NCBI GenBank assembly: GCA_028713995.1
Contig: JAQTNF010000040.1
Coordinates: 1-36,166, forward strand
Direction of reading: 5' to 3'
Origin: Deltaproteobacteria bacterium
Lineage (GTDB): Bacteria > Myxococcota_A > Polyangia > JAAYKL01
Length of the DNA: 36,166 nucleotides
Shown in pieces: positions 7,091 through 33,336 of the stretch (position 1 is the first letter of the stretch; each line of letters opens with the position of its first letter). A program made the translations under genes and the position numbers. Under the pieces are notes generated by a model. That model saw only the letters and a program-made list of their open reading frames with translations. It was not told the DNA's origin and ran no database searches.

Positions 7091-7103
7091 GCGGGAACGG
7101 CGT

Positions 7104-8063: not shown

Positions 8064-8150
8064 GCTCGCCTCCCTGCCCGCGGCCCCGGAAGGAAGCGTA
8101 GCACGACCGCGGGGAAAATCATGTCGGGAGGACGTCGCGTGCGGCCCGGC

Positions 8151-8528
8151 TCACTTCCCCACGAACTTTTCCGGATTGGCGTCGAACTGCGGTTTGCAGG
8201 CCGGACAGCAGAAGTAATACCATTTCCCCTGGTACTGAGATTTCGGCGTGTCGGCGGCCACCGTGAGCCCGTTCTTCGTCACCGGGCACGTGGCCTTGGC
8301 GCCGACCGGGGCCTCCGTATCGAACGCTGTCGGAGCCGTGCCCGGCACGGCCGCCGGTGCCATGGCCATTTGCATGGCCATCGGTGCGGAAGGCGCGGGT
8401 GTTGAAGGCGCCGGTGCGGCGGGCGCCTCAGGCGCCGGAGCCGGCGGCGGAGCAGCGGTCTGGCTGCAGCACGCACACAGCAGCGCGGTCGCGACAACAA
8501 CGGTGATTCCTGCGGAATTGAGCCCCAT
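8151..8528 (-). CDS. YHS-domain lipoprotein
   Basis: 125 aa. A signal peptide ends in LLCAC with the lipidated cysteine at about C20, followed by an Ala/Pro-rich spacer (residues 25-70) and a C-terminal YHS domain: CPVTKNG, then YYFCCPACKPQFDANPEKF. YHS domains bind transition metals through such cysteines and occur in copper- and heavy-metal-handling proteins and oxygenase-associated proteins. It is probably an envelope-anchored metal-binding protein; the metal cannot be told from the sequence. The ATG at 8528 has GAGGAGG 6 bases upstream. It lies 87 bases before the membrane sensor gene on the same strand, so the two could be co-transcribed. Confidence 0.82.
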   Translation of the reverse strand: MGLNSAGITVVVATALLCACCSQTAAPPPAPAPEAPAAPAPSTPAPSAPMAMQMAMAPAAVPGTAPTAFDTEAPVGAKATCPVTKNGLTVAADTPKSQYQGKWYYFCCPACKPQFDANPEKFVGK

Positions 8529-8687
8529 GGCGTCCTCCTCTTTGGTTTCCGGACGTGCCGGTTGCAGGGAGCATAGCACGCGCCCTGCGATTGTCCGCTT
8601 CGCTCGTTTTCGCGCCGGACGGATCGCTTGTGGGCCGTGGGGCTTGGGAGTTACACTCGACCCAGGCTAGAGACGCGGGAGGTCCGC

Positions 8688-12716: not shown

Positions 12717-12734
12717 ATTAAGGAGCGGAGCACC

Positions 12735-13226
12735 ATGGAAGTCGCCAAGATCGACCGCATCCTCGACAAATGGCGCCGGGATCCGGATTTTCTCATCGAG
12801 ATTCTTCAGGATGTCCAGGACGAGCAACGCTACCTGCCCGAGGACGCCGTGCGCCATGTGGCCGACGCGCTCAAGGTGCCGCTCGCGCGCGCCTACCACA
12901 TCGCCACGTTCTACAAGGCGTTCAGCCTGAAGCCGCGCGGCAAGCGCATCATCCAGGTGTGCATGGGAACCGCGTGCCACGTGAAGGGCGCGACGCGGGT
13001 GCTCGAGGCCTTCTCGCGCGAGCTCGGTGTGGCGCCCGGCGGGACCACCGCGGATCTGGAGTTCAGCCTCGAGGCCGTGCGCTGCCTGGGCTGCTGCAGC
13101 CTCGCGCCGGCCGTGACGGTCGGAGACGAGCTCGTGGGCGAGGTGGGCGCCGCGGACGCGGACAAGCTTCTCAGGCGCTCGCCCAAGGAGCCGGCAAAGA
13201 AGGGAGGCGGCCATGCAGCGCGTTGA
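12735..13226 (+). CDS. NuoE/HymA-like [2Fe-2S] subunit
   Basis: 163 aa. It has a thioredoxin-like [2Fe-2S] domain as in NuoE of complex I and the HymA/HndA subunits of NAD(P)-linked and electron-bifurcating enzymes. The N-terminal helical part contains YLPEDAVRHVADAL and HIATFYKAF; the cluster ligands are C76-x4-C81 (VCMGTACHVKG) and C117-x3-C121 (RCLGCCSLAPAV). It passes electrons between the NuoF-like flavoprotein and a partner. The SD (AAGGAG) lies between the AFOR-N stop and the ATG at 12735; the end overlaps the next start by 14 bases. No other complex I subunit is nearby, so it belongs to a soluble complex. Confidence 0.93.
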   Translation: MEVAKIDRILDKWRRDPDFLIEILQDVQDEQRYLPEDAVRHVADALKVPLARAYHIATFYKAFSLKPRGKRIIQVCMGTACHVKGATRVLEAFSRELGVAPGGTTADLEFSLEAVRCLGCCSLAPAVTVGDELVGEVGAADADKLLRRSPKEPAKKGGGHAAR

Positions 13227-15971: not shown

Positions 15972-17120
15972 TCAGCGCGCCCCGATCCGCAGCAACCTCG
16001 CGCCGGGGCCGGACCTCACGCGGATGGCGCCCTCGGGGCACACCTCCTGGCAGCAGAAGCACGAGATGCACGCCTTGCGGTCGATGACCGGTATGCGCCC
16101 GTCCTTGCCCTTCCCGGGCTCCATGGCGATGGCGCGCGCCGCGCAGATCTCGACGCACCGTCCGCACGACGAGCACTTCCTGAGGTCGATGGCGGGCCGC
16201 ATGCCGATGAGGCGATCCAGGATCGGCGAGAGGAATCCCGGGCCGCCAAAGGTGCGGACGATGGCCGGACGCGCCAGACGCCAGACCGGTTTCGGCCGCA
16301 GGCTCTCGGGCTCGGGACCCGCAACCTCGATGCGCTCGGGCAGGAGCCCGGCCTCGCGCGCCGCGGCCAGCGTGGGCACGGCCGCCGCGTCGACCCCCAG
16401 GATGCGCGCCAGGATCGCGTCGAGCGCGTGCGCGTTTGTGGACGCCAGAAGGACGCCGAGCGGCCGCGGATCGCCCGAGCCCGGACCGTTGCCCTCCATG
16501 CCGGTGACGCCGTCGAGGATGCTCAAGGCGGGCGCCACGAGCCCGTGCACGTGCACGAGCAGCCGCGCGAACGCCAGGTGGTCGCGGCCCGCGCGGAAGT
16601 GCCACTGCGCCTTGTCCATGCCCACCACCGCGCCGAAGCAGTTCTTGACCGCGCCGGTGAGCACCATCTGGCCGTGGGTCTTGGCCTTGGGCAGGTTGAC
16701 CACCAGGTCCGCGCCGCGCATGAGCCGCGACACGCGCAGCTTGCGGTAGGCCGCACCCGCGCCTGCCGCCTCGTCGCCGTCGTCCACGTCCACCACGCGG
16801 AACGGCTCGCCTTCGCCCATGCCGAGCTTCCTCGCGCAGCGCGTGGCCGAGCCCACGCCCGGGCTGTCGGTGAGCGTCACCTCGGAGGCGCCCGCTTCGC
16901 GCAGGAGGCGCGCCGCGGTCCGCGCGATCTCGGGGTGCGTGCACACGGCCTTCTCGATCGCGCTCGGCCACAGGAAGTTGGGCTTGAGGAGCGCCCGGCA
17001 CCCGGGCTTCGCGAACGCGGCCATGTCGCCCAAGGGTTCGAGCACGGCCTGCATGGCGCGCCGCACCTCGGTAGGCTCGTAGCCGTCGAGCCGCGCGATC
17101 GATACGAGCGGCGCGGTCAT
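15972..17120 (-). CDS. DUF362 protein with C-terminal 2[4Fe-4S] ferredoxin domain
   Basis: 382 aa. Residues about 1-290 form a DUF362 domain (ALLKPNFLWPSAIEKAVCTHP, DSPGVGSATRCARKLGM, VVNLPKAKTHGQMVLTGAVKNCFG). The C-terminus has two four-cysteine ferredoxin motifs, CSSCGRCVEICAARAI and CISCFCCQEVCPEGAI, so it should bind two [4Fe-4S] clusters. The biochemical role of DUF362 is not established to my knowledge; such proteins are common in anaerobes and are often annotated only as Fe-S proteins. The start ATG overlaps the stop of the upstream hydrolase gene (ATGA at 17120-17117), so the two are translationally coupled. The electron partner is unknown. Confidence 0.88.
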   Translation of the reverse strand: MTAPLVSIARLDGYEPTEVRRAMQAVLEPLGDMAAFAKPGCRALLKPNFLWPSAIEKAVCTHPEIARTAARLLREAGASEVTLTDSPGVGSATRCARKLGMGEGEPFRVVDVDDGDEAAGAGAAYRKLRVSRLMRGADLVVNLPKAKTHGQMVLTGAVKNCFGAVVGMDKAQWHFRAGRDHLAFARLLVHVHGLVAPALSILDGVTGMEGNGPGSGDPRPLGVLLASTNAHALDAILARILGVDAAAVPTLAAAREAGLLPERIEVAGPEPESLRPKPVWRLARPAIVRTFGGPGFLSPILDRLIGMRPAIDLRKCSSCGRCVEICAARAIAMEPGKGKDGRIPVIDRKACISCFCCQEVCPEGAIRVRSGPGARLLRIGAR

Positions 17121-20658: not shown

Positions 20659-23600
20659 GTGACGGAAGTCCCAAACCCGCTCATCCCGGACGTGCGGGAA
20701 GGCGCCCGTCCCATCGACGACATCGCCCGTATGGCCCTGTCGCGGCCGCGCATCAACGTCGTGGGCGCCGCAGGGGGAAGCCTCGCCGCGCTCGTCGCCC
20801 GGGTCGCGCGCGCCGGGAGCGGCAGCGTCCTTGTCGTGGTCGAGGATCGGGAGCGCAAGCGCGCCTTCGCGTCGGATCTGGCCTATCACTTCGGTGCCTT
20901 GTCCGGCATGGCCGATCCGGCGAGCGTGCTGCGCTTCCCGGCCCATGATCTCGGCCCCTACGAAGAGATCGCGCCGGACAGGCGTTCGCTCATGCGCCGC
21001 TCCGGGATGCTGTTTCGGCTCGCGTTCGGAGCGGGCTCGACCTTCCTCGTGGTTTCGGCCGACGCCCTCGCGCGGCGCCTCATACCCAGGGCCGCGTTCG
21101 AGGCCGCGTGCCTGCCGCTCGCGGTCGGCGACACCGTGGACTGGGGAGAGCTCCTCGCGGCCCTCGAGCGCGGGGGGTACCACCGCTCGCCGCTCGTGGA
21201 GGAGGCCGGCACGTACTCGGTGCGCGGCAGCATCATCGACGTGTTCCCGCCCTACCTCGCGCGTCCGGTGCGGGTCGATTTCTCGGGCTTCACCGTGGAG
21301 CGCATCCGTTTTTTCGATCCCGCGACCCAGGAGGGCGGCGAGGAGACGACCGAGACGTGGGTGCACCCGGCCCGACCGACGCTGATGCCGGCCTCGGACG
21401 AGGAGCGTTTCCGCATCGCGGCGCGCATCCGCGAGCTGTGCGACGAGGTGGACAGGCCGACGAGCCAGACCGACCGGCTGATCGAGGACGCGCTCGCGGG
21501 CCGCGTCGTGGTCGGGTCCGAGGGCCTCACCCCGGCCTTCCACGAACCGCTCGGCTCCCTGCTCGACTACCTGCCCGCAAACGTGACCGTGTGCCTCGAA
21601 AACCCGGCCGGCGTGCGCGCCGCGTGGCACAAGTCCGAGGCCATGCTCCTTACGGACTTCGAGCGCAAGCGCACGTCGGGCGAGCCCGCGTTCCCGCCTT
21701 CGAGCCACGCGTTGCCGTCCGTGCAGGTGGAAGAGTGGCTGCTCCGCCACAGGCTCGTCGTCGCACATCCGTTCGCGGTGTCGGGCGGCGATCCGGTCCC
21801 GCTCGAGCGCTGCGACGACCCCGTGGACCTCGGCGCCGCGTCCACCGCGGATCTGGGCGAGAAGCTGCGCAACCTGGTGCCGGCCGGCGACAAGGTCGAT
21901 CTGCTCGCGCCCCTCGCGGGCCATTTGCGCGCCCTCGACGAGCGCGGCGTGCGGACGATCCTGGTGGGGCACACGGCGGGACAGATGGAGCGGCTCGCGG
22001 CCATGTTGCGCGGGCGCGGCCTTGCGCCCCGGATCGCGGAACCCGGCGCGCCTTCCCACGGTCCCGGGCTTTCTCTCGCCGTGGGCGAGCTCAACCGCGG
22101 GTGCCTGCTGCCGGCCGACGCCGTGTGCTGGATCACCGAGGAGGAGATCTTCGGCAAACGCGCGCGGCGAAAGGCCCGTCCGGCTTCCGCCCACACCTCC
22201 CTCGACTCCCTGCGCCTTTCGAGGCCGGGCGATCTCATGGTCCACCTGGATCACGGCATCGGCCGCTACGAGGGCCTCGTACGCCAGCGCGTGCGCGGGG
22301 CCGAGATGGACTTCGTGCTGCTCACCTACAGGGACGGCGACAAGCTGTACGTGCCCGTCTACCGCCTGAACCAGGTGCAGCGCTACAGCGGCGGCGAGGG
22401 GCAGGTGCGCCTCGACAAGCTGGGCGGCGAGGGCTTCGCACGCACCAAGGCAGACGTGCGGAAGGCGGCCTTCGACATGGCCGGCAGGCTCCTCGACCTG
22501 TACGCACGTCGCGCCGCGGCCGAGCGCGGCCCGTTCCCCGCGCCCGACGACCTGCAACGCGCCTTCGAGGCGTCGTTCCCGTTCGAGGAGACCGACGACC
22601 AGCTGCGCGCCATCGACACGGTCATGGCCGATCTCGACGGGCCACGCCCCATGGACCGGCTCGTGTGCGGCGACGTGGGCTTCGGCAAGACCGAGGTGGC
22701 CCTGCGCGCGGCGTTCCGCGTGGTGATGGCGGGCCGGCAGGTGGCGGTGCTCGTGCCGACCACGGTGCTCGCGCAGCAGCACTTCCAGACGTTCTCGTCG
22801 CGCTTCAAGGGTTACCCGGTGCGCGTGGAGAGCATGAGCCGCTTCAGGACCGACGCGGAGAACGCGGCGGCGGCGACGGGACTCAAGGACGGGACCCTCG
22901 ACATCGTGGTCGGCACGCACCGTCTGCTCTCGCCGGACGTGCACTTCAAGCGCCTCGGGCTGCTCGTGATCGACGAGGAGCACCGCTTCGGCGTGGTGCA
23001 CAAGGAGCGCATCCGAGAGCTGCGCGCCTCGGTCGACACCATGGTCCTCACCGCGACGCCCATCCCGCGCACCCTTCACATGTCGCTTTCGGGCCTGAAG
23101 GACATCTCGCTCATCGCCACGGCGCCCGCGGATCGAAGACCCATCAAGACGTTCCTGTGCCACGACGATCCGGCCCTCCTGCGCGAGGCCATGGAGAAGG
23201 AGCTGGCGCGCGAGGGGCAGGTGTTCTTCGTCCACAACAGGGTGCGCGACATCGGCGAGGCGGCGGAGCGCGTGCGACGTCTCGTGCCAGGTGCGCGCGT
23301 GGTCGTGGGCCACGGGCAGATGAGGGAGGAGAGCCTCGAACGGGTCATGCTCGACTTCGTGGCCGGCAGGTACGACGTGCTCGTGTGCACCTCGATCATC
23401 GAGTCCGGGCTCGACATCCCGCGCGCCAATACGGTCATCATCGATCGCGCCGACACGTTCGGCCTGGCCCAGCTCTACCAGATCCGCGGCCGCGTGGGTC
23501 GCAGCCACAAGCAGGCCTACGCGTACCTGATCGTGCCGCCGCTCGAGTCCTTGTCCGGCGACGCGCGCGCGCGGGTGGAGGCGCTGGCCCGGTTCACGGA

Positions 23601-24240
23601 TCTCGGAAGCGGGTTCGCGGTGGCCACCATGGATCTCGAGATCCGCGGGGCGGGCAACCTGCTCGGGCCCGAGCAGTCCGGCGACGTGAGCGCCGTGGGC
23701 TTCGAGATGTTCTGCGATCTCGTCGCCGAGGCCACGGCCGAGATGCAGGGCCGACCGGTCGTCCGCGACGTGGAGCCGGAGCTGACCTTCGAGCGTCCGG
23801 GCTTCTTCCCGGACACGTACATGCCCGACGTGGGTCAGCGCCTCCAGTACTACAAGCGCCTCGCCCAGTCCGAGGACGAGGCCGAGGTCGAGTCGGTGGC
23901 GGCCGAGATCCGCGATCGGTTCGGCCCGCTTCCCGCGGACGCCCTGGATCTCGTCAAGCTCATGATCGCCAAGGCCCTGTGCCGCGCGCTTCGGATCCCG
24001 GGCCTCGAATCCGCGTCCGCGCGGGCCGTGGTGCACCTCCACTCCGAATCGCGGGTCGACCCGGAGCGGGTGGCAAAGATGGTGCGGGAGGCCAGGGGAA
24101 CAATCCGGCTCACTGCGGAGTTGAAGCTCATCGTGAAGCTCCCGCAGGACGACGAGACCGGAGCGGACGGGGCCATTCGCATCTTGCGTCGGCTGGGAGG
24201 CCATGATAACAACCCCCGAATATCACAGAGGAATCGGTAG
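20659..24240 (+). CDS. mfd: transcription-repair coupling factor
   Basis: Mfd removes RNA polymerase stalled at DNA lesions and recruits UvrA. The 1193-aa length is normal. The N-terminal UvrB-like region includes DLGPYEEIAPDRRSLMRR and YSVRGSIIDVFPPYL; the polymerase-interaction domain (RID) includes GDLMVHLDHGIGRYEGL and LTYRDGDKLYVPV. The SF2 translocase has Walker A GDVGFGKTEVA (about residue 671), the DEEHRFGV box (about 772), TATPIPRTLHMSLSG and the TRG-type motif DIPRANTVIIDRAD...QIRGRVGRS. The C-terminal D7-like domain begins near RPGFFPDTYMPDVGQRLQYYK. The GTG start at 20659 has CGGAG close upstream. The two parvulin genes follow, an arrangement I recall from other delta-type genomes. 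Confidence 0.97.
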   Translation: MTEVPNPLIPDVREGARPIDDIARMALSRPRINVVGAAGGSLAALVARVARAGSGSVLVVVEDRERKRAFASDLAYHFGALSGMADPASVLRFPAHDLGPYEEIAPDRRSLMRRSGMLFRLAFGAGSTFLVVSADALARRLIPRAAFEAACLPLAVGDTVDWGELLAALERGGYHRSPLVEEAGTYSVRGSIIDVFPPYLARPVRVDFSGFTVERIRFFDPATQEGGEETTETWVHPARPTLMPASDEERFRIAARIRELCDEVDRPTSQTDRLIEDALAGRVVVGSEGLTPAFHEPLGSLLDYLPANVTVCLENPAGVRAAWHKSEAMLLTDFERKRTSGEPAFPPSSHALPSVQVEEWLLRHRLVVAHPFAVSGGDPVPLERCDDPVDLGAASTADLGEKLRNLVPAGDKVDLLAPLAGHLRALDERGVRTILVGHTAGQMERLAAMLRGRGLAPRIAEPGAPSHGPGLSLAVGELNRGCLLPADAVCWITEEEIFGKRARRKARPASAHTSLDSLRLSRPGDLMVHLDHGIGRYEGLVRQRVRGAEMDFVLLTYRDGDKLYVPVYRLNQVQRYSGGEGQVRLDKLGGEGFARTKADVRKAAFDMAGRLLDLYARRAAAERGPFPAPDDLQRAFEASFPFEETDDQLRAIDTVMADLDGPRPMDRLVCGDVGFGKTEVALRAAFRVVMAGRQVAVLVPTTVLAQQHFQTFSSRFKGYPVRVESMSRFRTDAENAAAATGLKDGTLDIVVGTHRLLSPDVHFKRLGLLVIDEEHRFGVVHKERIRELRASVDTMVLTATPIPRTLHMSLSGLKDISLIATAPADRRPIKTFLCHDDPALLREAMEKELAREGQVFFVHNRVRDIGEAAERVRRLVPGARVVVGHGQMREESLERVMLDFVAGRYDVLVCTSIIESGLDIPRANTVIIDRADTFGLAQLYQIRGRVGRSHKQAYAYLIVPPLESLSGDARARVEALARFTDLGSGFAVATMDLEIRGAGNLLGPEQSGDVSAVGFEMFCDLVAEATAEMQGRPVVRDVEPELTFERPGFFPDTYMPDVGQRLQYYKRLAQSEDEAEVESVAAEIRDRFGPLPADALDLVKLMIAKALCRALRIPGLESASARAVVHLHSESRVDPERVAKMVREARGTIRLTAELKLIVKLPQDDETGADGAIRILRRLGGHDNNPRISQRNR

Positions 24241-24255
24241 CAAGGAGTGTGGTCC

Positions 24256-25347
24256 ATGAAACGAAGAGCGAGGGTTTGCCGGGTGCTCGTCGTCGTTGTC
24301 GCGGCCGCGGCGGTGTGGCTCGCGGGCTGTGGGGAGAAGAAGGCCGGGACCCCGGCCGGGGCCGGCAAGAAACCCGCCGCGGGCCAAGGGGTTCCGGATG
24401 GGCTCACACCCGAGCAGGCGGCCAAGGTCGTGGCCCGGGTCGGCGACGCGGTCATCACGGTCGGCGACGTGACGCGCCAGATCAACCGGCTGTCGCCGTA
24501 CATCCGGCGCAGGTGGGCCGCGCCCGAGAAGCGCAAGGAGTTCCTCGACAAGCTCATCCGCGTGGAGCTGCTCGCGCAGGAGGCACAGCGCCTGGGGTTG
24601 GGCGAGGATCCCGAGGTCCAGCGCACGGTCAAGCAGGTCATGATCCGCCTCATGATCAAGAACGATTTGGAAAAGAACGTCCTGCCCGTGTCCGTGGACG
24701 AGGGCACGCTCAAGACCGAGTACGACAAGGAGATCGACAAGTACAAGCGGCCTGCTCAGGTGCGCGCGAGCCACATCGTCGTGAAGACGAGGGAGGCCGC
24801 GGCGAAGCTCATCGCGGATATCAAGGCGCACACGGACGACGGCCGCTACTTCAGGGACAAGGCCGCGGAGCTGTCGCTCGACGAGAAGACCAAGGGACAG
24901 GGCGGAGATCTGGGCTACTTCTCGAGGCCCGAGGAGCGCAGGCCGGACGAGCCCGAGGTGCCGAAGGCGGTGGCCGAGGCCGCGTGGAAGATCGCGAACG
25001 TGAACGAGCTCGCGCCCGAGCCGGTCGAAGCACCGGGCGGCTTCTCGGTGGTCAGGCTGACCAACAAGAAGCCCGCGCTCGACCGCTCGTTCGAGAGCGT
25101 CAAGCGCCTCATCGAGAACCGGCTCCTGCGCGACAAGCGCGGCCAGGCGCTCGACGATTTCGTGGCCGATCTGCGCAAGAAGGCCAAGGTCGAGATCACG
25201 GCCGAGAACCTCGACAAGGTCGTGCTCCCGCCCGAGCCGCCTCCCATGCCCGGCATGGGCATGGGGTTCCCGCCCCCGGGCGCAATGGGCACGATGCCCG
25301 GCCGGGAGCCGCCTCCATCTTCACCGGCGCCCGGGAAGGCCGAGTAG
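24256..25347 (+). CDS. parvulin-type peptidyl-prolyl isomerase lipoprotein
   Basis: 363 aa. A lipoprotein signal (VWLAGC, C25) and Ala/Gly/Lys spacer precede a SurA_N-like helical chaperone domain (VARVGDAVITVGDVTRQINR to LEKNVLPVSVD) and one parvulin PPIase domain (VRASHIVVKTREAA, FRDKAAELSLDEKTKGQGGDLGYFSR, APEPVEAPGGFSVVRLTNKK). It should catalyse proline isomerisation and chaperone proteins outside the cytoplasmic membrane. The tail is rich in Pro, Met and Gly (PPPMPGMGMGFPPPG). The ATG at 24256 has AAGGAG 8 bases upstream. It starts 15 bases after mfd, with the second parvulin gene 7 bases after its stop: one transcription unit. Confidence 0.93.
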   Translation: MKRRARVCRVLVVVVAAAAVWLAGCGEKKAGTPAGAGKKPAAGQGVPDGLTPEQAAKVVARVGDAVITVGDVTRQINRLSPYIRRRWAAPEKRKEFLDKLIRVELLAQEAQRLGLGEDPEVQRTVKQVMIRLMIKNDLEKNVLPVSVDEGTLKTEYDKEIDKYKRPAQVRASHIVVKTREAAAKLIADIKAHTDDGRYFRDKAAELSLDEKTKGQGGDLGYFSRPEERRPDEPEVPKAVAEAAWKIANVNELAPEPVEAPGGFSVVRLTNKKPALDRSFESVKRLIENRLLRDKRGQALDDFVADLRKKAKVEITAENLDKVVLPPEPPPMPGMGMGFPPPGAMGTMPGREPPPSSPAPGKAE

Positions 25348-25354
25348 GCCGGCC

Positions 25355-26356
25355 GTGCCGGGAGTCGCTTTCATCCCGCGGACGGCGTGCCTCCTCGCAT
25401 GCCTGGCTCTCGCCGCGCCCGCGCTCGGCCAGGATGGCGCCAAGGGACGCGTCGTCGATCGCATCGCCGCGGTGATCGGCTCGGACATCATCCTCGCGAG
25501 CGAGGCCGCGCTGAAGGCGGCCCCGCAGCTCACGGAGTTCGAGAAGGCGGGCGGAGACACCCTCATCGGCGGCGACAAGAAGCGCGCCCAGCTCCTGCGC
25601 GACGCGCTCGAGAAGCTCATCGACGCAGAGCTCGTCAAGCAGCAGGCCGTGGAGATGAAGATCACGGTGGCGGGCGAGGAGGTCGACCGGGCCATCGAGA
25701 ACATCGCACGCGAGAACAACGTGGACGTGGAGACGCTCAGGCGCGCGGTCGTGACCCAGGGCATGGACTACCTCGCCTACCGCAACAACCTGCGCGACGA
25801 GATCCTGCGCTTCAAGGTGTTGAACCTGCGCGTGCGCGGTCGCGTCAAGATCTCGGACGCCGAGGCGCGCCAGTACTACAACGACCAGGTGCGCGAGATC
25901 CGGGTCAAGGGCACGTTCGAGGGCGCTCATGTTCTCGTGCGCGTGCCCGAGGGTGCAAGGCCGGCCGAGGTCGCGGCGGCGAGAAAAAAAGCCGAGGCGA
26001 TCCTCACGCGCGTCCGCGGCGGAGAGCGTTTCGAGGATGTCGCGCGCGCCGAGTCGGATGACAAGGCCACGGTTGAGGGGGGCGGCAGCCTCGGCCTGAA
26101 ATCTCCGGGCCAGCTCCCCAAAGTGCTCGACCGGGAGTTCCTCGACATGGAGCCGGGCGAGGTGGCCGGGCCCATACGCACCGCGGCCGGGTTCCACGTC
26201 CTCAAGCTCGTCTCGCGCGAGGCGCTCGGCGTCCAGAAATTCAGCGAGGTCAAGGACCGTATCATGAGCCAGCTCGCCAAGGACGCCATGGCGCGCCAGG
26301 AGCAGATCTGGCTCAAGGAACTGCGCCTCAAGACTTACATCGAGATTCTCCTGTGA
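25355..26356 (+). CDS. SurA-like periplasmic peptidyl-prolyl isomerase
   Basis: 333 aa. Signal peptide (CLLACLALAAPALG, cleavage probably before QDG), a SurA_N domain (DRIAAVIGSDIILASEAALK to LRDEILRFKVLNLRVRGRV) and a single parvulin domain (EGAHVLVRVPEGARPAEV, EDVARAESDDKATVEGGGSLG, LDMEPGEVAGPIRTAAGFHVLKL). E. coli SurA has two parvulin repeats; this has one. It assists outer-membrane protein folding in the family. The GTG at 25355 is chosen from position and the signal peptide; the SD is poor, so coupling to the previous gene is likely. Last gene of the mfd unit. Confidence 0.92.
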   Translation: MPGVAFIPRTACLLACLALAAPALGQDGAKGRVVDRIAAVIGSDIILASEAALKAAPQLTEFEKAGGDTLIGGDKKRAQLLRDALEKLIDAELVKQQAVEMKITVAGEEVDRAIENIARENNVDVETLRRAVVTQGMDYLAYRNNLRDEILRFKVLNLRVRGRVKISDAEARQYYNDQVREIRVKGTFEGAHVLVRVPEGARPAEVAAARKKAEAILTRVRGGERFEDVARAESDDKATVEGGGSLGLKSPGQLPKVLDREFLDMEPGEVAGPIRTAAGFHVLKLVSREALGVQKFSEVKDRIMSQLAKDAMARQEQIWLKELRLKTYIEILL

Positions 26357-26379: not shown

Positions 26380-26408
26380 TTGACACCCGGCCGGACATAG
26401 ATTAGTTA
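26380..26408 (+). promoter_or_regulatory. putative promoter upstream of the ABC-GTPase-NifS operon
   Basis: A perfect -35 consensus TTGACA (26380-26385) with TAGTTA (26403-26408) at 17-base spacing as a weak -10. The 137-base gap is A+T-rich in contrast to its surroundings and carries a near-direct repeat (ATTAGTTA and ATTAGATA, 12 bases apart) and a run of eight T at 26445-26452, which makes regulation here likely, though the details are uncertain. Confidence 0.35.
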
Positions 26409-26493
26409 TCCCATTAGATAGGTCATATAAGAAGACACGGTCTGTTTTTTTTGAGATGAAATGCGATAAACCCAATCGGACAAGGAGGATAAG

Positions 26494-27279
26494 ATGATCG
26501 AAAGGATCACGGTGACGACGGGGCATGGCCGCAACGGCGAGGCCGACGGCATGGAGCGGCTCGAGCTGCGCATGGGCGACGTGGTCAGCATCGTGGGCCC
26601 CACCGGCTCGGGCAAGACCACGCTCATCAACGACATCGAGCTGTTCGCGGACGGGGACACTCCCTCGGGCCGTCGCGTGCTCATCGACGGCGCGCGGCCG
26701 CCGGCCGAGTACCGGCACGATCCGGCGCGCCACCCCATCGCGCTCATCACGCAGCACACCACGTTCCTCTCGGATCTGCCCGTGGGCCTGTTCCTCAGCA
26801 CGCACGCCAAGATCCGCTGCACCGTGGCCTCGGGCGCCGTGGACCTGGTCGAGGAATCGCTCGCCTTTGCCAACCAGCTCACCGGCGAGCCCATCGAGGC
26901 CCACTCGCGCATGACCGAGCTGTCCGGCGGCCAGACACGCGCCCTGCTCATCGCCGACGCGGCGATCATCTGCAGCACGCCCATCGTGCTCCTCGACGAG
27001 GTGGAGAACGCGGGCATCCACCGCACGCGCGCCATCGAGCTCCTGCGCCGCTACCGCAAGATCTTCATCTTCGTGACGCACGACCCGCGCATCGCGCTCT
27101 TGAGCGACTACCGCGTGGTCATGAAGAACGGGCGCATCACCGCGGTGCTGCACACCGACGAGGCTGAGCGCATTTTCGCGGTCAAGGTGAGCCGGCTCGA
27201 CGACGCGATGAGCGATCTGCGCGACCGGCTGCGCCACGGGATGCGCCTCGACGGCACGGAACTCCGGGGGCTGGCATGA
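26494..27279 (+). CDS. orphan ABC-type ATPase of a metallocentre-assembly-like operon
   Basis: 261 aa, soluble. ABC ATPase motifs are complete: Walker A GPTGSGKTT (35-43), Q-loop Q87, signature LSGGQ (143-147), Walker B IVLLDE (D168, E169) and H-loop H196 (FVTHDP). The D-loop region, ENAGIH, is not the SALD of transporter subunits, and no permease or binding-protein gene is near, so it probably works in the cytoplasm rather than in transport; SufC- or AtwA-type ATPases are precedents for such roles (inference). The ATG has AAGGAGG. The stop overlaps the GTPase start as ATGA, indicating a fixed stoichiometric partnership with the next three genes. Confidence 0.85.
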   Translation: MIERITVTTGHGRNGEADGMERLELRMGDVVSIVGPTGSGKTTLINDIELFADGDTPSGRRVLIDGARPPAEYRHDPARHPIALITQHTTFLSDLPVGLFLSTHAKIRCTVASGAVDLVEESLAFANQLTGEPIEAHSRMTELSGGQTRALLIADAAIICSTPIVLLDEVENAGIHRTRAIELLRRYRKIFIFVTHDPRIALLSDYRVVMKNGRITAVLHTDEAERIFAVKVSRLDDAMSDLRDRLRHGMRLDGTELRGLA

Positions 27280-27977
27280 GGCTCGCCATCTGCGCAGGGC
27301 CGGCCACCACCGGCAAGACCGCCGTGCTGCGGCACGTTGCCCGCAAGCTCCTCTCGCTCGGCCACAAGGTCGCGTTCCTCAAGATCGACGTGCAGTACGC
27401 TGAAGAGGACGAGCAGCTCGCGGCCGAGCTCGGCATCCCCACGCGCAAGGTCTACTCCGGCGAGCTGTGCCCGGATCACTGCTCGGTCATGGTGCTCGGC
27501 GACGCGCTCGCGTGGGCCGCGGCAGCGGGCGCGGACGTGCTCCTCGTGGAGACCGCCGGGCTGTGCCTGCGCTGCGCCCCGTACGTGGACGGCGGGCTCG
27601 GGCTCATCGTGATGGAGGCCACCTCGGGCATGAACCTTCCGCTCAAGGTGGGGCCCATGCTCTCGCTCGCGGATCTGGCGGTCGTGACCAAGATCGACCG
27701 GGTCTCGCAGGCCGAACGCGAGGTGTTCCGCGCGCGCATCGGCGAGGTGGCGCCGCGCGTCAAGGTGCGCGAGGTCAACGCGCTGCACGGGATCGGCATC
27801 GATCCGATCGTGGAGGAGGTGCTCGCCGCGCCGCTCGCATTCGAGGGCATGCAGCTTCGCGGCAACCCGCCCGTGGGCACGTGCACCATCTGCGTGGGCA
27901 AGAAGGACATCGGGTGGCAGTCGCACTTCGGCGTGGTGCGGCCGCTCGACAACCAGACGTTCTACAGGGGCGAGTGA
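27276..27977 (+). CDS. HypB-like SIMIBI GTPase with three cysteine pairs
   Basis: 233 aa. P-loop GPATTGKT (8-15), a HypB-like FLKIDVQYAEED, GELCPDHC where HypB has its metal-binding Cys-His, VETAGLCLRCAP in place of HypB's IENVGNLVCPA, TSGMNLPLKVGPML matching HypB's TEGEDKPLKYP, TKID (138-141) as the G4 base-specificity motif, and NALHGIGID as G5. Paired cysteines at C65/C69, C97/C100 and C203/C206 could bind metal or an Fe-S cluster. HypB and UreG load nickel into hydrogenase and urease; a metal-delivery role here is inference. It overlaps the ABC gene upstream (ATGA) and the NifS gene downstream (GTGA). No hyp, ure or CODH gene is in the window. Confidence 0.85.
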   Translation: MRLAICAGPATTGKTAVLRHVARKLLSLGHKVAFLKIDVQYAEEDEQLAAELGIPTRKVYSGELCPDHCSVMVLGDALAWAAAAGADVLLVETAGLCLRCAPYVDGGLGLIVMEATSGMNLPLKVGPMLSLADLAVVTKIDRVSQAEREVFRARIGEVAPRVKVREVNALHGIGIDPIVEEVLAAPLAFEGMQLRGNPPVGTCTICVGKKDIGWQSHFGVVRPLDNQTFYRGE

Positions 27978-29182
27978 CTGTGCGGCCGCTCGTCTATCTC
28001 GACAACTCGGCCACGACCCGGCTCGATCCGCGCGTGGCCGAGGCTATGCGCCCGCATCTCGAAGACTCGTACGGCAACCCATCGAGCCTGCACGCCATGG
28101 GTCGCGAGGCGCGCGCGGCGGTGGAGGAGGCGCGAGCGAGCGTGGCGGGCCTCGTGAACGCCCGGCCGCGCGAGATCGTGTTCACGGGCAGCGGCACCGA
28201 GGCCAACAACCTGGCGCTCCTCGGCGCGGTGGGGGCCTCGGGCGCGGTGACGCCCCACATGGTCGCATCGGCCTTCGAGCACCCGTCCGTGCTCGAGCCC
28301 TGCGCCCGTCTGCGCGCGCTGGGCGCGGACGTGACGCTCCTCCCGGTGGGAGGCGACGGCATCGTCGAGCCTGGTGAGCTGGCCCGCGCCATGCGCCCGG
28401 AGACGGTGCTCGTCTCGATCATGACCGCCAACAACGTTGTGGGCACGCTGCAGCCCATCGCCGAGCTCGCGCGGGTGGCGCGCTCGCGCGGAGCGCTGTT
28501 CCACACGGACGCGGTCCAGGCCGCGGGCAGGGTTCCCATCGAAGTGTCGCGCGACGACGTGGACCTGCTCTCCCTGTCGGCGCACAAGCTCCACGGCCCC
28601 AAGGGGGTGGGAGCCCTGTTCGTCCGCACGGGCGTAAGGATCGCGCCCCAGGTCCACGGCGGCGGGCAGGAACAGGGCCTGCGCTCGGCCACGGAGAACG
28701 TGGCCGGAATCGCGGGGTTCGGCCGTGCGGCCGAGATCGCGGCCGCGGCGCGGGGCGAGGAGGCGGCCCGACTCGTCAACCTGCGCGATCGGCTGCTCGA
28801 GGCGATTTGCGGCTCGGTGCCAGGAGCCTACCTGATCGGGCACCCGCACCGCCGCCTGCCCGGTCACCTGTGCATCGGGATCTCGGGCCTCGAACCCGAG
28901 GCCATGAAGCTGCTCCTCGCCCTGGACGAGCAGGGGTTCGCGGTCTCCACGGGCAGCGCGTGCAGCTCGAGCCACGCAAGCGAGCCCTCGCACGTGCTCA
29001 TGGCCATGGGCTTCGATCCGGTGCGGGCGCGCGGCTCGCTCCGCATCACCCTCGGCCGCTTCAACACCGACGAGGAGGCCCTCGCCTTCGCCGACGCCCT
29101 GCGGCGGGTCGCAGCCACATTGCGCCCCATCACGACCCGCAAAATCCCGAGCGAAAGGACTGAACCATGCCGAACCAGGTGA
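27974..29182 (+). CDS. NifS/IscS-like cysteine desulfurase
   Basis: 402 aa. A PLP enzyme that takes sulfur from cysteine and forms a persulfide. The N-terminus VYLDNSATTRLDPRVAEAM and GNPSSLHAMGREA, the PLP lysine K205 (LSAHKLHGPKG), RSATENVAGIAGFG and active-site Cys C330 in GSACSSSHASEPSHVL are typical of the NifS/IscS group. Being inside a HypB-like GTPase operon, it is probably a dedicated sulfur donor rather than the housekeeping IscS (inference; no iscU or scaffold follows). The GTG at 27974 overlaps the GTPase stop as GTGA; a GTG at 27980 is a close alternative. The 3' end overlaps the next gene by 16 bases. Confidence 0.92.
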   Translation: MTVRPLVYLDNSATTRLDPRVAEAMRPHLEDSYGNPSSLHAMGREARAAVEEARASVAGLVNARPREIVFTGSGTEANNLALLGAVGASGAVTPHMVASAFEHPSVLEPCARLRALGADVTLLPVGGDGIVEPGELARAMRPETVLVSIMTANNVVGTLQPIAELARVARSRGALFHTDAVQAAGRVPIEVSRDDVDLLSLSAHKLHGPKGVGALFVRTGVRIAPQVHGGGQEQGLRSATENVAGIAGFGRAAEIAAAARGEEAARLVNLRDRLLEAICGSVPGAYLIGHPHRRLPGHLCIGISGLEPEAMKLLLALDEQGFAVSTGSACSSSHASEPSHVLMAMGFDPVRARGSLRITLGRFNTDEEALAFADALRRVAATLRPITTRKIPSERTEPCRTR

Positions 29183-29865
29183 ACCTTCCGGGCATCGACT
29201 GCGGGCTGTGCGGCTCGCGTACGTGCGCCGAGTTCGCGCAGCGCCTCGCCACGGATCCGGAGTTGATCAAACGCTGCATTCCGTTGTCGACGGATTCCAC
29301 GCCACCGCCCAAGGCCTCCGTTCCGGTCCAGGCGCCGGCGGCGTGCGAAGCTGCCTGCGCGGGATGTGCGCCCGCGCCGCGGCAGAAGAAAACGCCCGAG
29401 TGGCACGATAGCCTCGGTCGCGAGTTCGACTTCATCCTCGAGCACTTTCCCGAGGATCCGGGGCCTCGCGAGATCATCCTGCCCCACAACCCCATGCTCA
29501 CCCGCGAGATGGACGTGAAGCGCGGCGACGTGCTCATCGGCAGGCCGCTCGGCATGTCGTGCGGCTGTCCCATCACCCACTGCGGCGTCGTCTCGGACGT
29601 GGATCCCCGCACGGGCGTCATCACGTGGTGCGTGACCGGCCCGCTCGGCCCGCGCGAAAAGGGCTTCAAGGACATCGGGTACTACATCGCCGAGGCGTAC
29701 GAGGGCATGATCCCGCGAGCGCGCTGCGACATCAAGATCGGCATGCGCTACTTCTTCCAGCCGCGCATGTGCATGCTCCAATGGCGGCACAGCGGCCTCG
29801 TGAACTACGTGAACCGCACGCCCGTCGGCATGCAGGTGCGCCTGGAAGGCCTTTGGATCGGGTGA
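29167..29865 (+). CDS. [4Fe-4S] domain protein with uncharacterised Cys-rich C-terminal domain
   Basis: 232 aa. The N-terminus LPGIDCGLCGSRTCAEFA with C12-x2-C15-x4-C20 and C37 is the four-cysteine Fe-S domain of RnfB and corrinoid Fe-S proteins. A linker with CEAACAGC follows, then a domain of about 160 residues (EFDFILEHFPEDPG to VRLEGLWIG) that I do not recognise, with SCGCPITHC and MCML. It could be a scaffold, a cluster carrier, or the client of the three proteins encoded before it. The ATG at 29167 follows AAAGGA and sits inside the end of the desulfurase gene. It is the last gene of the operon and is convergent with the Fic-like gene. Confidence 0.8.
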   Translation: MPNQVNLPGIDCGLCGSRTCAEFAQRLATDPELIKRCIPLSTDSTPPPKASVPVQAPAACEAACAGCAPAPRQKKTPEWHDSLGREFDFILEHFPEDPGPREIILPHNPMLTREMDVKRGDVLIGRPLGMSCGCPITHCGVVSDVDPRTGVITWCVTGPLGPREKGFKDIGYYIAEAYEGMIPRARCDIKIGMRYFFQPRMCMLQWRHSGLVNYVNRTPVGMQVRLEGLWIG

Positions 29866-29892: not shown

Positions 29893-30666
29893 TCAGGACG
29901 CCGCGGCCGCGCCGCTGAGCATCTTGCCGGTCGCTTCCACGGACGAAAGCGCGGACTCCAAGATCAGTCGCGTGAGAGCCTGCTGGGGCTGGCGGATGCA
30001 CTCGTAGTAGCGCTGGCGCTCGGTGGCGTGGATCACGGCGGGCAGGTAGCCGTTGCGGATGAGCACCATGTTCATCATGACCCGGCCGACCTTGCCGGAC
30101 ACGTCGGCGTACGGGAAGATGCGCATGAACCGGTAGTGGAACTTGGACGCCCAGAGCACCGGGTGCAGCTCGGCCGCCTCATCCGGGTCGTTCAGCCACT
30201 GAACCAGCTTGCGCATGTTCGGTCCGATCGCGTCGGGCGCGCAGATCTCGTGGAAGTACGAGCGGTGCAGCGGAATTTCCTTGCGGTAGCGGCCGGGCGC
30301 GCCGCCGTCCGAGTCGCCCGAGAAGAACGCGTGGAACTCCTTGAAAAGGCTCACCGAGTACACGAGCTTCTTGCGCGCCGCCGTCTCGCGCGCCAGGTGC
30401 AGCGCCCAGCGATGCGAGCGCAACGCCAGGTACAGCCCGAGCGAGGACGCATCGGTCACGGCGCGGTAGTCGAAGGCGTTGTCGAGATCCGACGCCGAAA
30501 CCACCTGACCCTCGAGCGCCCAATCATGGTAAATGGTGGAAACGTCCAGGCTCTTCCACAATCCGGCGATGAGCGAGCCCGAGCTTCGGGCCATCAGGTG
30601 ACGGACAGATTCGGCCCGCCTGTCGAGCTCGGTCAGCATCCCGTCCATGGGATCGTGTTGCATCAT
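29893..30666 (-). CDS. degenerate Fic-domain protein
   Basis: 257 aa, soluble. The helical arrangement and the segment FHYRFMRIFPYADVSGKVGR match the Fic core (HPFx(D/E)GNGRxxR), but the catalytic His is Phe (F184), Asn is Ser (S190) and the first Arg is Lys (K192); P185, D188, G191 and R195 are kept. DWALEG (E52, G53) lies where many Fic proteins have the inhibitory helix. AMP transfer by the usual mechanism is not expected; it may bind nucleotides, have another activity, or act as a regulator. Two ATGs (30666, 30663) are possible with a weak SD. A good sigma-70-type promoter lies 44 bases upstream. The region around the start is A+T-rich. Confidence 0.72.
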   Translation of the reverse strand: MMQHDPMDGMLTELDRRAESVRHLMARSSGSLIAGLWKSLDVSTIYHDWALEGQVVSASDLDNAFDYRAVTDASSLGLYLALRSHRWALHLARETAARKKLVYSVSLFKEFHAFFSGDSDGGAPGRYRKEIPLHRSYFHEICAPDAIGPNMRKLVQWLNDPDEAAELHPVLWASKFHYRFMRIFPYADVSGKVGRVMMNMVLIRNGYLPAVIHATERQRYYECIRQPQQALTRLILESALSSVEATGKMLSGAAAAS

Positions 30667-30709
30667 CTTGTCTTCTTTTTGTTTGAGCAAACAGCCCCCT
30701 ATTCCAAGT

Positions 30710-30738
30710 ATTCTATTAATACATCCGCATGTCGTCAA
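30710..30738 (-). promoter_or_regulatory. sigma-70-type promoter of the Fic-like gene
   Basis: On the minus strand TTGACG (30738-30733), a 17-base spacer and TAGAAT (30715-30710), in an A+T-rich island. The predicted transcript starts near 30703, giving a leader of about 37 bases before the ATG at 30666. Confidence 0.6.
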
Positions 30739-30800
30739 GAAAACTCTTCTATCTTATTGTAATAATTAAGAATTTTAGAATTTCGAACGGGTCGCGGGGG

Positions 30801-32456
30801 TCAGCCGCCCACAAAGAGACGCGCGATGTCATTCCAGGTGGCGAACACCAGAAGGGCCAGAATCATGGCCACGCCCACCAGCATGATCCGCTCCTTGAGC
30901 AGTCGGCTCAAGGGCTTGCGCAGGAGCGACTCCACTCCGATGAGGAGGATCTGGCCGCCGTCCAGGACCGGGATGGGGAAGAGGTTGATGAGGCCCAGGT
31001 TGACGCTGATGAGGGCCATGATCCACAGGAAGCTCAAGGCTCCCGCCTCGCCGGCGCGACCCGCGAGCTGTCCGATCATGATGGGCCCGCCCAAAGTGCG
31101 CACCGAGACCTTGCCCTGGAACAGGAGCTTGAAGCCCAGGAACATCACCTTGAAACCGTTGGCGGTTTCGGTTGCGGCAAAGGAGAGCGCGCTGCGCACG
31201 AGCGCCGGGTTGGGCACGGGCACCGGCGCCACGGCCGCGGCCATGCCCCAGAATCCCTTGTCGTACACGCCCGGCGCCGGGCCGAGCTTGCCCGCCTCTC
31301 CCGCGGGGTGGAACGCGGGCTTGTAGGAGCGCTCGAAGCTCTGTCCCTCGCGGGAAAAGGACAGCCTCCAGGTCCGTTCCGGTTCGCGCTCGATGGCGTC
31401 GAAGACCTGGCCCATGGGGTAGGTCCGGCCGTCCAGGGATTCGAGCCGGTCCCCACGCGCGAGGCCGATCTTGTCGGCCGCGCCGCCCGGGGCCACGTAG
31501 GCCACGAAATCCGCGGACGGACCGATGCCCAGATCCGCGAGCGAGTGGGCGTCCGCCGGCACCACCAGGATCAGGCTGCGCTTTCCCTTCTCGAGCGCGG
31601 TCTCGAGGGGCGGCTTGGCATCCGGGGCGAGGCGCCTCACCACCAGCCCCACGCTGTGCCCGGCGGCCGCGACCAGGACTTTTTCGAGCTCCACGTAGCG
31701 GGTCAAGGGCCTGCCGTTCGCGCTCACCACCACGTCGAACGTCCGGAGCCCCGCCTTGCCCGCCGGGCTTCCCGGGTCCTCCACCCCGACCTGCGCCGCC
31801 AGGTACGACGGCCCGATCCCGATGCGGCCGACGCGCTCCTTGACGTCGAGCAGCACGCGCTCCTCGAGCGGGGCGGGCGTGATGGTGCGCGTGAACAGGG
31901 TCTTGCCGCGTCGCACCTCGAACCTGAGGGGCACGCCCGGGCGGGGCGCCACGGCCGCGATCAGGTCGTCAAAGCTGCCGATCCGCTTGCCGCCGACGGA
32001 CTCGACGCGGTCGCCGGGCCGCAGACCAGCCTCGAACGCCGGGCTGCCCGGAAGGACGGTCCCCACCTCGGGGGGCACCACCTTGGTCATGGTGAGGCCC
32101 GCGCCGAAGTGCAGGAAGAGCGGAAAGATCAGGTTCATGCACGGCCCGCCCAGGATGATGACGAGCCGCTGCCAGCGGGGCTTGTCGCCGAACGCGCGGC
32201 CGCGATCCTCGGGCCCGAGCTCCTCGCTCGGATCCTCGCCGAGCATCTTCACGTAGCCGCCCACCGGGATCGCGCTCAGCCGGTACTCGGTCTCGCCGCG
32301 GCGCACGGCCGCGAGCTTGGGGCCGAACCCCATGGAGAACACGTGCACCTTGACCTTGAAGAGCTTGGCGAACAGGAAGTGGCCGCCCTCGTGGACGAGC
32401 ACCAGCACGCCGATGAGGATGATGAAGAAGACGAGGGCCCACAGGGTCGAAGCCAT
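30801..32456 (-). CDS. rseP: RseP-family site-2 metalloprotease with three PDZ domains
   Basis: 551 aa integral membrane protease that cleaves membrane-embedded anti-sigma factors and signal-peptide remnants. The zinc motif HEGGH (H22, E23, H26) lies in the first membrane helix; the second active-site motif NLFPIPVLDGGQI lies near the C-terminus. E. coli RseP has 450 residues and two PDZ domains; here three PDZ-like units are visible (VLPGSPAFEAGLRPGDRV, VEDPGSPAGKAGLRTFDVVV, VAPGGAADKIGLARGDRLES). The ATG at 32456 (MASTLW) has AAGGTG 5 bases upstream; the upstream in-frame start would add 11 residues. It stands alone here, without dxr, cdsA or bamA. Confidence 0.93.
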   Translation of the reverse strand: MASTLWALVFFIILIGVLVLVHEGGHFLFAKLFKVKVHVFSMGFGPKLAAVRRGETEYRLSAIPVGGYVKMLGEDPSEELGPEDRGRAFGDKPRWQRLVIILGGPCMNLIFPLFLHFGAGLTMTKVVPPEVGTVLPGSPAFEAGLRPGDRVESVGGKRIGSFDDLIAAVAPRPGVPLRFEVRRGKTLFTRTITPAPLEERVLLDVKERVGRIGIGPSYLAAQVGVEDPGSPAGKAGLRTFDVVVSANGRPLTRYVELEKVLVAAAGHSVGLVVRRLAPDAKPPLETALEKGKRSLILVVPADAHSLADLGIGPSADFVAYVAPGGAADKIGLARGDRLESLDGRTYPMGQVFDAIEREPERTWRLSFSREGQSFERSYKPAFHPAGEAGKLGPAPGVYDKGFWGMAAAVAPVPVPNPALVRSALSFAATETANGFKVMFLGFKLLFQGKVSVRTLGGPIMIGQLAGRAGEAGALSFLWIMALISVNLGLINLFPIPVLDGGQILLIGVESLLRKPLSRLLKERIMLVGVAMILALLVFATWNDIARLFVGG

Positions 32457-32534
32457 GCCGCACCTTACCACGAAGCGGGCAACGCACAATGCCGGGCCCG
32501 CGGGTCAGCGGCCGGTCCGGGTAAGTCGCCCATG

Positions 32535-32615
32535 CCGGTTCGAGGGCCCATTGTTCAGGGCCATGGCGAAGGAACCGGCCCCGGAGCCGTTGCTCCAGTG
32601 CCCGCCGCGGATCCC
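32535..32615 (-). pseudogene. remnant of a second FGE-sulfatase-like gene 3' end
   Basis: Read on the minus strand, this piece encodes RGGHWSNGSGAGSFAMALNN and then GPS, clearly homologous to [20 protein letters not shown] plus GPS at the end of the intact gene at 33337-34977. After GPS the frame departs (NRHGRL instead of WDDSIG), and there is no upstream domain. It is a leftover of a duplicated or replaced paralogue; the VapBC-type pair lies between it and the intact copy. Confidence 0.65.
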
Positions 32616-32643
32616 CGCCGCCGACAAGCCCGCCTTTCAGGCT

Positions 32644-33060
32644 TCAGGGGACGACGGTCAGCCCGCTGGCTCGGGACGCCTCGGCGAGGCGCTTGTCGAA
32701 CGTCGCGACCGCCGCGCCGAGATCCGAAGCCACTGCCAGGTGAAGGGAGTCCAACGTGCGAAGCGGGATCCTCGATTCGGTGCAGAACGCACGAACCACG
32801 GCCACGTGATCCGGTGACAGGGCCACCCGATGGTACACGCCCTGCGAAAGGTGCTCCTCGAAGAAGGACCGGCTTTGCTCCATCTGGTCACGCGTGAGAG
32901 ATCCCGCGCGCAGCTTTCGAGCCAGGCCCACGTAAAGCTCGGCCACCGTGACGTCGCTCACCGCGACGGCGTCGGCGGTCTCGACGATCCGCTGCGCCTC
33001 TTCGCTCTGCTCCTCCGGGACATAGCAGGGAAGGAGCAGCGAGGTGTCGGCGTAGATCAC
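32644..33060 (-). CDS. PIN-domain toxin, VapC-like
   Basis: 138 aa. PIN-domain RNase with the four acidic metal-binding positions: D5 (MIYADTS), E41 (VAELYVGL), D104 (LRTLDSLHLA) and D122 (ATFDKRL). PIN toxins of VapBC modules cut tRNA or rRNA when not bound by the antitoxin. The GTG start at 33060 overlaps the antitoxin stop as GTGA, the usual antitoxin-then-toxin order. It sits between the remnant at 32535-32615 and the 3' end of the FGE-like gene, so the module probably moved in or rode with a recombination event. Confidence 0.85.
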   Translation of the reverse strand: MIYADTSLLLPCYVPEEQSEEAQRIVETADAVAVSDVTVAELYVGLARKLRAGSLTRDQMEQSRSFFEEHLSQGVYHRVALSPDHVAVVRAFCTESRIPLRTLDSLHLAVASDLGAAVATFDKRLAEASRASGLTVVP

Positions 33061-33290
33061 GAGCGTTCCTCCTCGCGCATCTCCAGGATGGTGTTACCCG
33101 GGTATACGGGCGCTCCGAGCCGGGCCCGGAACCCGGCGAAATCGGGCACGGGGCGCTTCTCGGGCACCGCGGCCGCGCCGTCGTCAATCTCGATCCGGAT
33201 CCGGCGCCTTCCCCTGGGGGCGTGTCCCGGCGCCTTGACCACGAGCATACCGTCTTCCGCAATTTCAACTATGGTTTCGATGGTGACCAT
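33057..33290 (-). CDS. antitoxin of the VapBC-type pair
   Basis: 77 aa. The N-terminal half (MVTIETIVEIAEDGMLVVKA) reads as a short beta domain of the kind found in small antitoxins, followed by a basic stretch (RGRRRIRIEIDDG) and a C-terminal segment (PVPDFAGFRARLG to ILEMREEERS) of the type that wraps the PIN toxin. DNA binding for autoregulation is expected from family behaviour. The ATG at 33290 is preferred because GGAGGTG lies upstream at good spacing; the in-frame ATG at 33320 would add 10 residues. The toxin gene overlaps by 4 bases. Confidence 0.75.
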   Translation of the reverse strand: MVTIETIVEIAEDGMLVVKAPGHAPRGRRRIRIEIDDGAAAVPEKRPVPDFAGFRARLGAPVYPGNTILEMREEERS

Positions 33291-33336
33291 CCACTTCACC
33301 TCCGCTACTTCCGAGAGCATTGTACCATGGATCCCT

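Follow-up and report, generated by a model that had tools for sequence, protein, structure and literature searches.

A soluble ATP-binding cassette (ABC) ATPase drives iron-sulfur (Fe-S) cluster assembly in the SUF and SMS systems (PMC12192291), and in the isr operon of Acetobacterium wieringae, which encodes a putative isoprene reductase, a HypB-like GTPase was proposed to deliver nickel to an operon partner (PMC10134865). Here we describe an operon that resembles both, located at positions 26,494 to 29,865 of the forward strand of a 36,166-nucleotide stretch of DNA (contig JAQTNF010000040.1, positions 1 to 36,166, assembly GCA_028713995.1; this whole stretch is hereafter the window) from a Deltaproteobacteria bacterium of the class Polyangia, and we report that its core is a conserved, widely shared module linked to sulfur assimilation. 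Like this operon, isr contains a HypB-like GTPase and a Fe-S protein but no hydrogenase (PMC10134865), and among published systems it comes closest as a case in which a HypB-like GTPase works for a partner other than hydrogenase; it differs in having HypA proteins and a large flavin adenine dinucleotide (FAD)/Fe-S oxidoreductase and, as described, neither an ABC ATPase, nor a desulfurase, nor a sulfur context. The SUF and SMS systems (SufC, SmsC) share with the operon a soluble ABC ATPase associated with Fe-S chemistry and a desulfurase that is sometimes present (PMC12192291), whereas the operon adds a GTPase and lies in a sulfur-assimilation neighbourhood, and no SufB/SmsB-like partner was seen in it. 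The operon is composed of the following genes:

26494..27279, + strand: soluble ABC ATPase, 261 residues (PF00005, E 7e-14)
27276..27977, + strand: HypB/UreG-fold metallo-GTPase, 233 residues (PF02492, E 5e-11; structure model)
27974..29182, + strand: NifS/IscS-type cysteine desulfurase, 402 residues, optional operon member (PF00266, E 2e-74)
29167..29865, + strand: Fe-S protein, 232 residues, candidate client or enzyme (family found in 73 fetched loci; structure model with a predicted local distance difference test (pLDDT) score of 87)

On re-reading the coordinates, the four genes do overlap by 4, 4 and 16 bases, as the sequence-only reading of this DNA had stated, and its two other observations, intact catalytic motifs in all four genes (by eye and by profile) and an A+T-rich leader, were borne out as well: positions 26,400-26,493 contain 37% G+C against 68% in the window, and 0.2% of equal-size stretches reach this value. 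The desulfurase gene starts with GTG (27974), and if translation began instead at a second GTG (27980), the GTPase and desulfurase genes would no longer overlap but be separated by 2 bases. The window genome has 5.0 Mb, is 97% complete and contains the Fe-S gene in single copy; no match indicating plasmid carriage of the window was found.

A GTPase alignment scan of named genomes retrieved 550 relatives. The comparison was made on the 80 best loci, and their gene order was tabulated with a simple self-trained gene caller. These best 80 of the 550 relatives span approximately 18 phyla (Chloroflexota, Omnitrophota, Planctomycetota, Acidobacteriota, Pseudomonadota, Bacteroidota, Bacillota and Elusimicrobiota among them), and include three archaeal groups; Pararhodospirillum oryzae, Rhodoblastus sphagnicola and Thioalkalivibrio denitrificans are culturable bacteria that carry the operon. 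The GTPase gene is directly preceded by the ABC gene in nearly all loci, and since the ABC-GTPase-FeS order is present in about 70 loci other than that of the window, with the exact 4-base ABC/GTPase overlap in 53, the arrangement is neither due to chance nor a peculiarity of one genome. The sequence-only reading had proposed a dedicated system made of the four genes; a conserved gene set that recurs in many genomes does exist, but four genes as the conserved unit had to be ruled out, since the desulfurase is found between the GTPase and the Fe-S protein in approximately 34 of approximately 71 complete operons and is absent from about half of them. The core unit is thus ABC ATPase - HypB/UreG-fold GTPase - Fe-S protein, with an optional desulfurase, and, in fact, the same-class relative G017 has ABC-GTPase-FeS without desulfurase, with proteins 62-70% identical to those of the window (62% for the ABC ATPase). 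In a tree of 57 GTPases, phyla are interleaved and the module GTPases separate from a distant paralogous family. The window GTPase is 83% identical to Chloroflexota sequences and 70% identical to that of G017, which points to horizontal transfer. A full-length match to the Fe-S gene was observed in only 2 of 379 sampled genomes of the window's phylum and in 14 of 384 Omnitrophota genomes. As the sequence-only reading did not recognise the combination as a named pathway, so we found no description of the operon in the literature searched, which included no preprints and few subscription papers; the conserved module is real, widely shared and apparently unnamed.

The linkage of the module to sulfur assimilation, a context unforeseen in the sequence-only reading, is well supported. 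Genes that serve to take up or activate sulfate, or to make cysteine or methionine, were identified in 22 of 81 operon loci (52 genes), and in 2 of 53 control regions of the same genomes (4 genes), or 1 of 52 once control L163, which is the operon contig of L059, was discounted by hand. Fisher p values, calculated before L163 was dropped, were approximately 4e-7 by gene and 3e-4 by locus, and the effect size is somewhat inflated by the choice of the query families from operon loci. A single run in L038 contains a sulfate-binding protein, ABC, GTPase, FeS, the permeases CysT and CysW and a transporter ATPase, which places the operon inside a sulfate transporter operon; the operon is followed by a sulfate-binding protein and a permease in L077 and by CysC, CysD and CysN in L095; CysC-CysD-CysN precedes Rrf2-ABC-GTPase-FeS in L067, and CysK is immediately downstream of the operon in L045, L048, L050 and L059. 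A sulfur-starvation island lies beside the operon of Pararhodospirillum oryzae (L047, positions 151-8694), with a serine acetyltransferase, a family 2A encapsulin shell with its desulfurase cargo and, oriented divergently to the operon, nitrogenase-like genes of the MarBHDK type. Family 2A encapsulin with desulfurase cargo was described as a sulfur-starvation compartment (PMC8049743), and the nitrogenase-like genes resemble methylthio-alkane reductase (PMC12552129).

Given these observations, the reading that we prefer, tentatively and with somewhat less than even confidence, is that of a horizontally spread, Rrf2-controlled sulfur-assimilation module that may build a siroheme-free metal-sulfur reductase, most likely for sulfite. 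The sequence-only reading would have been supported by a client enzyme shared across genomes, which we did not observe: no external metalloenzyme recurs across loci, and sulfur-assimilation genes recur instead. Because no such external client was found, and because the neighbours belong to sulfur assimilation and not to hydrogenase, urease, carbon monoxide dehydrogenase (CODH) or nitrogenase, the Fe-S protein itself is the likelier client or enzyme. The opposite arrangement, in which the module would mature a separate client metalloenzyme encoded elsewhere (nitrogenase-like or another sulfur-scavenging reductase) and the Fe-S protein would act as a carrier or donate electrons, is a serious rival that we nevertheless consider unlikely: the operon does stand beside the nitrogenase-like genes of P. 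oryzae, and a distant paralogous set stands beside NifH/NifDK-like genes in L022, but nitrogenase-like genes are near only 1 of the 81 operon loci and no client gene recurs.

That paralogous set, observed in the window's phylum, is tightly packed and consists of GTPase - radical S-adenosylmethionine (SAM) protein (approximately 440 residues) - GTPase - ABC ATPase; in L022 it adjoins a NifH-like gene, two NifDK-like genes and another radical SAM gene. It is present at the following loci:

L021; L022, 7142-9875; L023, 2808-6204; L024; L025, 6012-9532; L027

The operon is directly preceded by a gene for an Rrf2 regulator in approximately 29 loci. An imperfect palindrome 23 bases long (TTATCCTAT-N7-GTCATAT) is found repeatedly a short way upstream of the ABC or the Rrf2 gene. 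A matrix trained on 15 sites from other loci, with the window excluded from training, recovers held-out sites in approximately 17 further loci, the window included. The site in the window scores 17.5, the best in the 36 kb (the runner-up scores 10.0), and the highest control score is 13.9 after dropping controls on operon contigs (control L192, the operon contig of L045, was discounted by hand). The elements of the window leader are:

26380..26385, + strand: TTGACA shortly before the operator-like site, a possible -35 box (consensus match only)
26406..26428, + strand: Rrf2-type operator-like site TTATCCCATTAGATAGGTCATAT (matrix hit)
26482..26489, + strand: ribosome-binding site AAGGAGGA, as read from the sequence

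A position just downstream of TTGACA is what would be expected of a repressor site. Since the window operon has no adjacent Rrf2 gene, its regulator would be encoded elsewhere. A match upstream of CysK in L055 was rejected, since it falls inside a gene, where the DNA encodes a conserved motif of CysK.

An Rrf2 regulator and a desulfurase make up the isc operon, and the presence of the same combination here raises a second serious rival, namely Fe-S cluster biogenesis under sulfur scarcity, in which the desulfurase would provide sulfur, the Fe-S protein would be the scaffold, the ABC ATPase would play the part of SufC/SmsC, the GTPase would bring iron or another metal and the adjoining sulfur genes would supply cysteine. 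A soluble ABC ATPase driving SUF and SMS (PMC12192291), a desulfurase adjoining the GTPase in about half of the operons, and CysK and CysE among the neighbours agree with it. Against this, the cluster cysteines of IscR are missing from most of the Rrf2 proteins encoded beside the operon, the desulfurase is often absent, no SufB-type scaffold partner was seen in the operons, and the sulfate transporter, CysCDN and MetX/MetW neighbours would be unexpected. The recurrent operon partners are GTPase, FeS, NifS and Rrf2 only, although the SufB profile was not run on every neighbour. Taking also into account that the invariant Arg, His and Cys residues of the Fe-S protein's C-terminal domain, described below, are more active-site-like than scaffold-like, we regard Fe-S biogenesis as rather improbable. 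The sequence-only reading had left the Fe-S protein as either scaffold or client; the scaffold is not favoured, and client (or enzyme) is the likelier part.

The GTPase contains the motifs GPATTGKT, ETAG and TKID, and its structure model (pLDDT 89) has HypB (2hf8, E 1.5e-11) and UreG (4hi0, E 1.8e-11) as top Protein Data Bank (PDB) matches in Foldseek, which also retrieves HypB 4lps (E 1.8e-9). The model and the alignment confirm the HypB/UreG fold and the metal-site residues, in accordance with the HypB-like assignment of the sequence-only reading. The module GTPases have three conserved cysteine-containing motifs:

27468..27479, + strand: CPDH motif, invariant in 56 sequences, at the position of the UreG CPH (which binds nickel) and of the HypB C-H metal site (aligned to 4hi0, 5xkt and 4lps)
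27558..27575, + strand: GLCLRC switch-region cysteine pair (Cys97, Arg99 and Cys100 invariant)
27882..27893, + strand: C-terminal CTIC cysteine pair (Cys203 and Cys206 invariant)

CPDH and GLC align with the CH...C region of Helicobacter pylori HypB. With HypB and UreG, the module GTPase shares the SIMIBI fold, the G motifs, a switch cysteine and, between G1 and G3, the metal-site Cys and His; it differs from them in its approximately 20% identity, the additional invariant GLCxRC and C-terminal CxxC motifs, and the lack of a hydrogenase or urease partner, and it scores under the curated cut-offs of both families (43.8 bits against 121.2 for the HypB profile TIGR00073, and 25.7 bits against 204.2 for the UreG profile TIGR00101). 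Judging from sequence and model, it probably works like a metal-delivery GTPase; nevertheless, it is not classed as HypB or UreG. No hydrogenase or hyp gene family recurs in the operon neighbourhoods, with a hydrogenase cluster near the operon in L048 only, as an isolated case.

The desulfurase is of fold-type I, with the pyridoxal phosphate (PLP) lysine in SAHK and the cysteine loop GSACSS. It reaches 440.7 bits with the NifS profile TIGR03402, under its cut-off of 530.75, and 362.8 bits with the DndA profile TIGR03235, under its cut-off of 480; a PADLOC match to DndA (451 bits) reflects the shared desulfurase family. A role in DNA phosphorothioation was ruled out, as no dnd partners were seen at the loci and the DndA cut-off was not reached. 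The reading of the operon as a variant hyp, ure, nif or acs system would agree with the HypB/UreG-like fold and metal site of the GTPase and with the NifS-like desulfurase, but is very improbable, given the scores far under the hypB/ureG cut-offs and under the nifS cut-off, and the fact that genes for hydrogenase, urease, nitrogenase or CODH do not recur in its neighbourhood; the sequence-only reading had likewise noted that none of these genes is in the window. The ABC ATPase is of a generic soluble type, with Walker A GPTGSGKTT, signature LSGGQ, Walker B VLLDE and the switch His in THD, and no permease partner was found beside it.

The Fe-S protein has two recognisable parts:

29200..29277, + strand: [4Fe-4S] motif with Cys12, Cys15, Cys20 and Cys37, invariant in the family alignment (PF04060, E 4e-9)
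29404..29862, + strand: C-terminal beta domain with invariant Cys134, His138, Cys202, His208, Arg126, Arg163 and Arg194

The N-terminal CxxCxxxxC...C cluster motif resembles that of the corrinoid Fe-S protein and of the RnfB FeS domain (PF04060), whereas the remainder is unrelated to them. The C-terminal domain, of approximately 150 residues, retains its Cys, His and Arg residues across 58 sequences and is modelled mostly with pLDDT above 90. It belongs to no Pfam family, PF04060 being the sole Pfam match in the protein, and no solved relative of the protein was found by sequence. Foldseek gave no match to this domain below E 0.001 and the best aligner Z was 5.3, which does not by itself show the novelty of the fold. 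We suggest that a metal-sulfur site sits on its invariant Cys and His residues.

What we infer of the module's metal, client and reaction would fit together as follows. The desulfurase, from the operon or from elsewhere, would supply sulfur, the GTPase would deliver a metal ion by its CPDH and cysteine sites, and the ABC ATPase would spend ATP on assembling the site or on activating it reductively. The product would be a metal-sulfur centre on the invariant Cys/His residues of the C-terminal domain, to which the N-terminal [4Fe-4S] cluster would feed electrons. The matured Fe-S protein would then, without siroheme, form sulfide by reducing an oxidised sulfur compound (most likely sulfite), and the sulfide would go to CysK or O-acetylhomoserine sulfhydrylase. 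It is possible, if doubtful, that the Fe-S protein, with a HypB-like GTPase, an ABC ATPase and a desulfurase of its own for maturation, is in this way a siroheme-free assimilatory reductase of sulfite or a related sulfur oxyanion that would fill a missing step in many anaerobes, with an unprecedented metal-sulfur active site located in a domain outside the known families. The siroheme assimilatory sulfite reductases (CysI, Sir, AsrC) would share with it the proposed reaction and the position in the pathway; the Fe-S protein differs in having approximately 230 residues, against a two-repeat siroheme enzyme, and in lacking the NIR_SIR domain (PF01077).

Of the 52 carrier genomes, 32 gave no NIR_SIR match, among them G017 and the window genome, which encodes Sat. 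Sat or PF01507 (CysD/CysH) without NIR_SIR was observed in 26 of the 52 carriers and in 14 of 57 non-carrier relatives. Three carriers without a detected NIR_SIR appear, from their gene content, to make sulfite yet to lack a siroheme sulfite reductase: G454 (CysD, CysN and a profile-confirmed adenosine 5'-phosphosulfate (APS) reductase, CysH, on a 5.26 Mb contig), G420 (Sat and a profile-confirmed CysH) and G418 (a CysH-like gene and an ATP sulfurylase). AprAB was ruled out as the missing APS reductase, since AprB is present in only 4 carriers, all with NIR_SIR.

CysD-CysN pairs were also identified in G419 and G426 (L119, L121), G421 (L116) and G424 (L118), in which no CysH, AprB or NIR_SIR was found; at L119, sulfotransferase-like genes adjoin the pair and CysDN may serve sulfation there.

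Carriers with CysD in which no CysH, AprB or NIR_SIR was seen, a window genome with Sat only, and sulfonate-like transporters at some loci suggest that the module could act, instead of on sulfite, on another oxidised or organic sulfur compound, such as thiosulfate, a sulfonate, or APS or 3'-phosphoadenosine 5'-phosphosulfate (PAPS) directly. We give this little credence, as no specific substrate gene recurs and CysDN can serve sulfation, as the genes beside it in L119 illustrate.

Several observations weigh against the sulfite-reductase reading that we prefer. NIR_SIR is present in 20 of the 52 carriers and absent from 24 of the 57 non-carriers, so that its absence among carriers is only mildly enriched, and most genomes in the sample are incomplete metagenome-assembled genomes. 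The non-carrier G057 also has two PF01507 genes and no NIR_SIR, and the sulfite-reductase gap alone therefore proves nothing. An operon-specific co-occurrence with sulfate activation was judged weak, PF01507 being present, among genomes without NIR_SIR, in 18 of 32 carriers and 8 of 24 non-carriers and, within Omnitrophota, in 11 of the 14 carriers against 185 of the 370 genomes without the operon. The window genome has neither a PF01507 match nor AprB as a source of sulfite, and no sulfur-assimilation gene lies close to the window locus. At the Sat, CysH and CysDN genes checked, no upstream operator was found.

Many anaerobic genomes, including the three mentioned above, encode sulfite-making enzymes without a recognised assimilatory sulfite reductase, and the module makes this gap testable. 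If the reading holds, HypB/UreG-type metal delivery would extend beyond hydrogenase and urease, and a protein domain outside Pfam coverage would acquire a role.

Further genes noticed in the window are:

11934-15093: stand-alone gene for an aldehyde ferredoxin oxidoreductase N-terminal domain (260 residues); next come NuoE-like and NuoF-like genes that carry additional Fe-S domains
15972-17120, - strand: DUF362 protein with a two-cluster ferredoxin domain
20659-26356: Mfd (transcription-repair coupling factor) and then two PpiC/SurA-type peptidyl-prolyl isomerases, immediately before the operon
29893-33320, - strand: convergent genes downstream of the operon that encode a protein with a Fic domain, an RseP-like M50 protease containing PDZ domains and a toxin-like PIN-domain protein, the last with a small upstream partner

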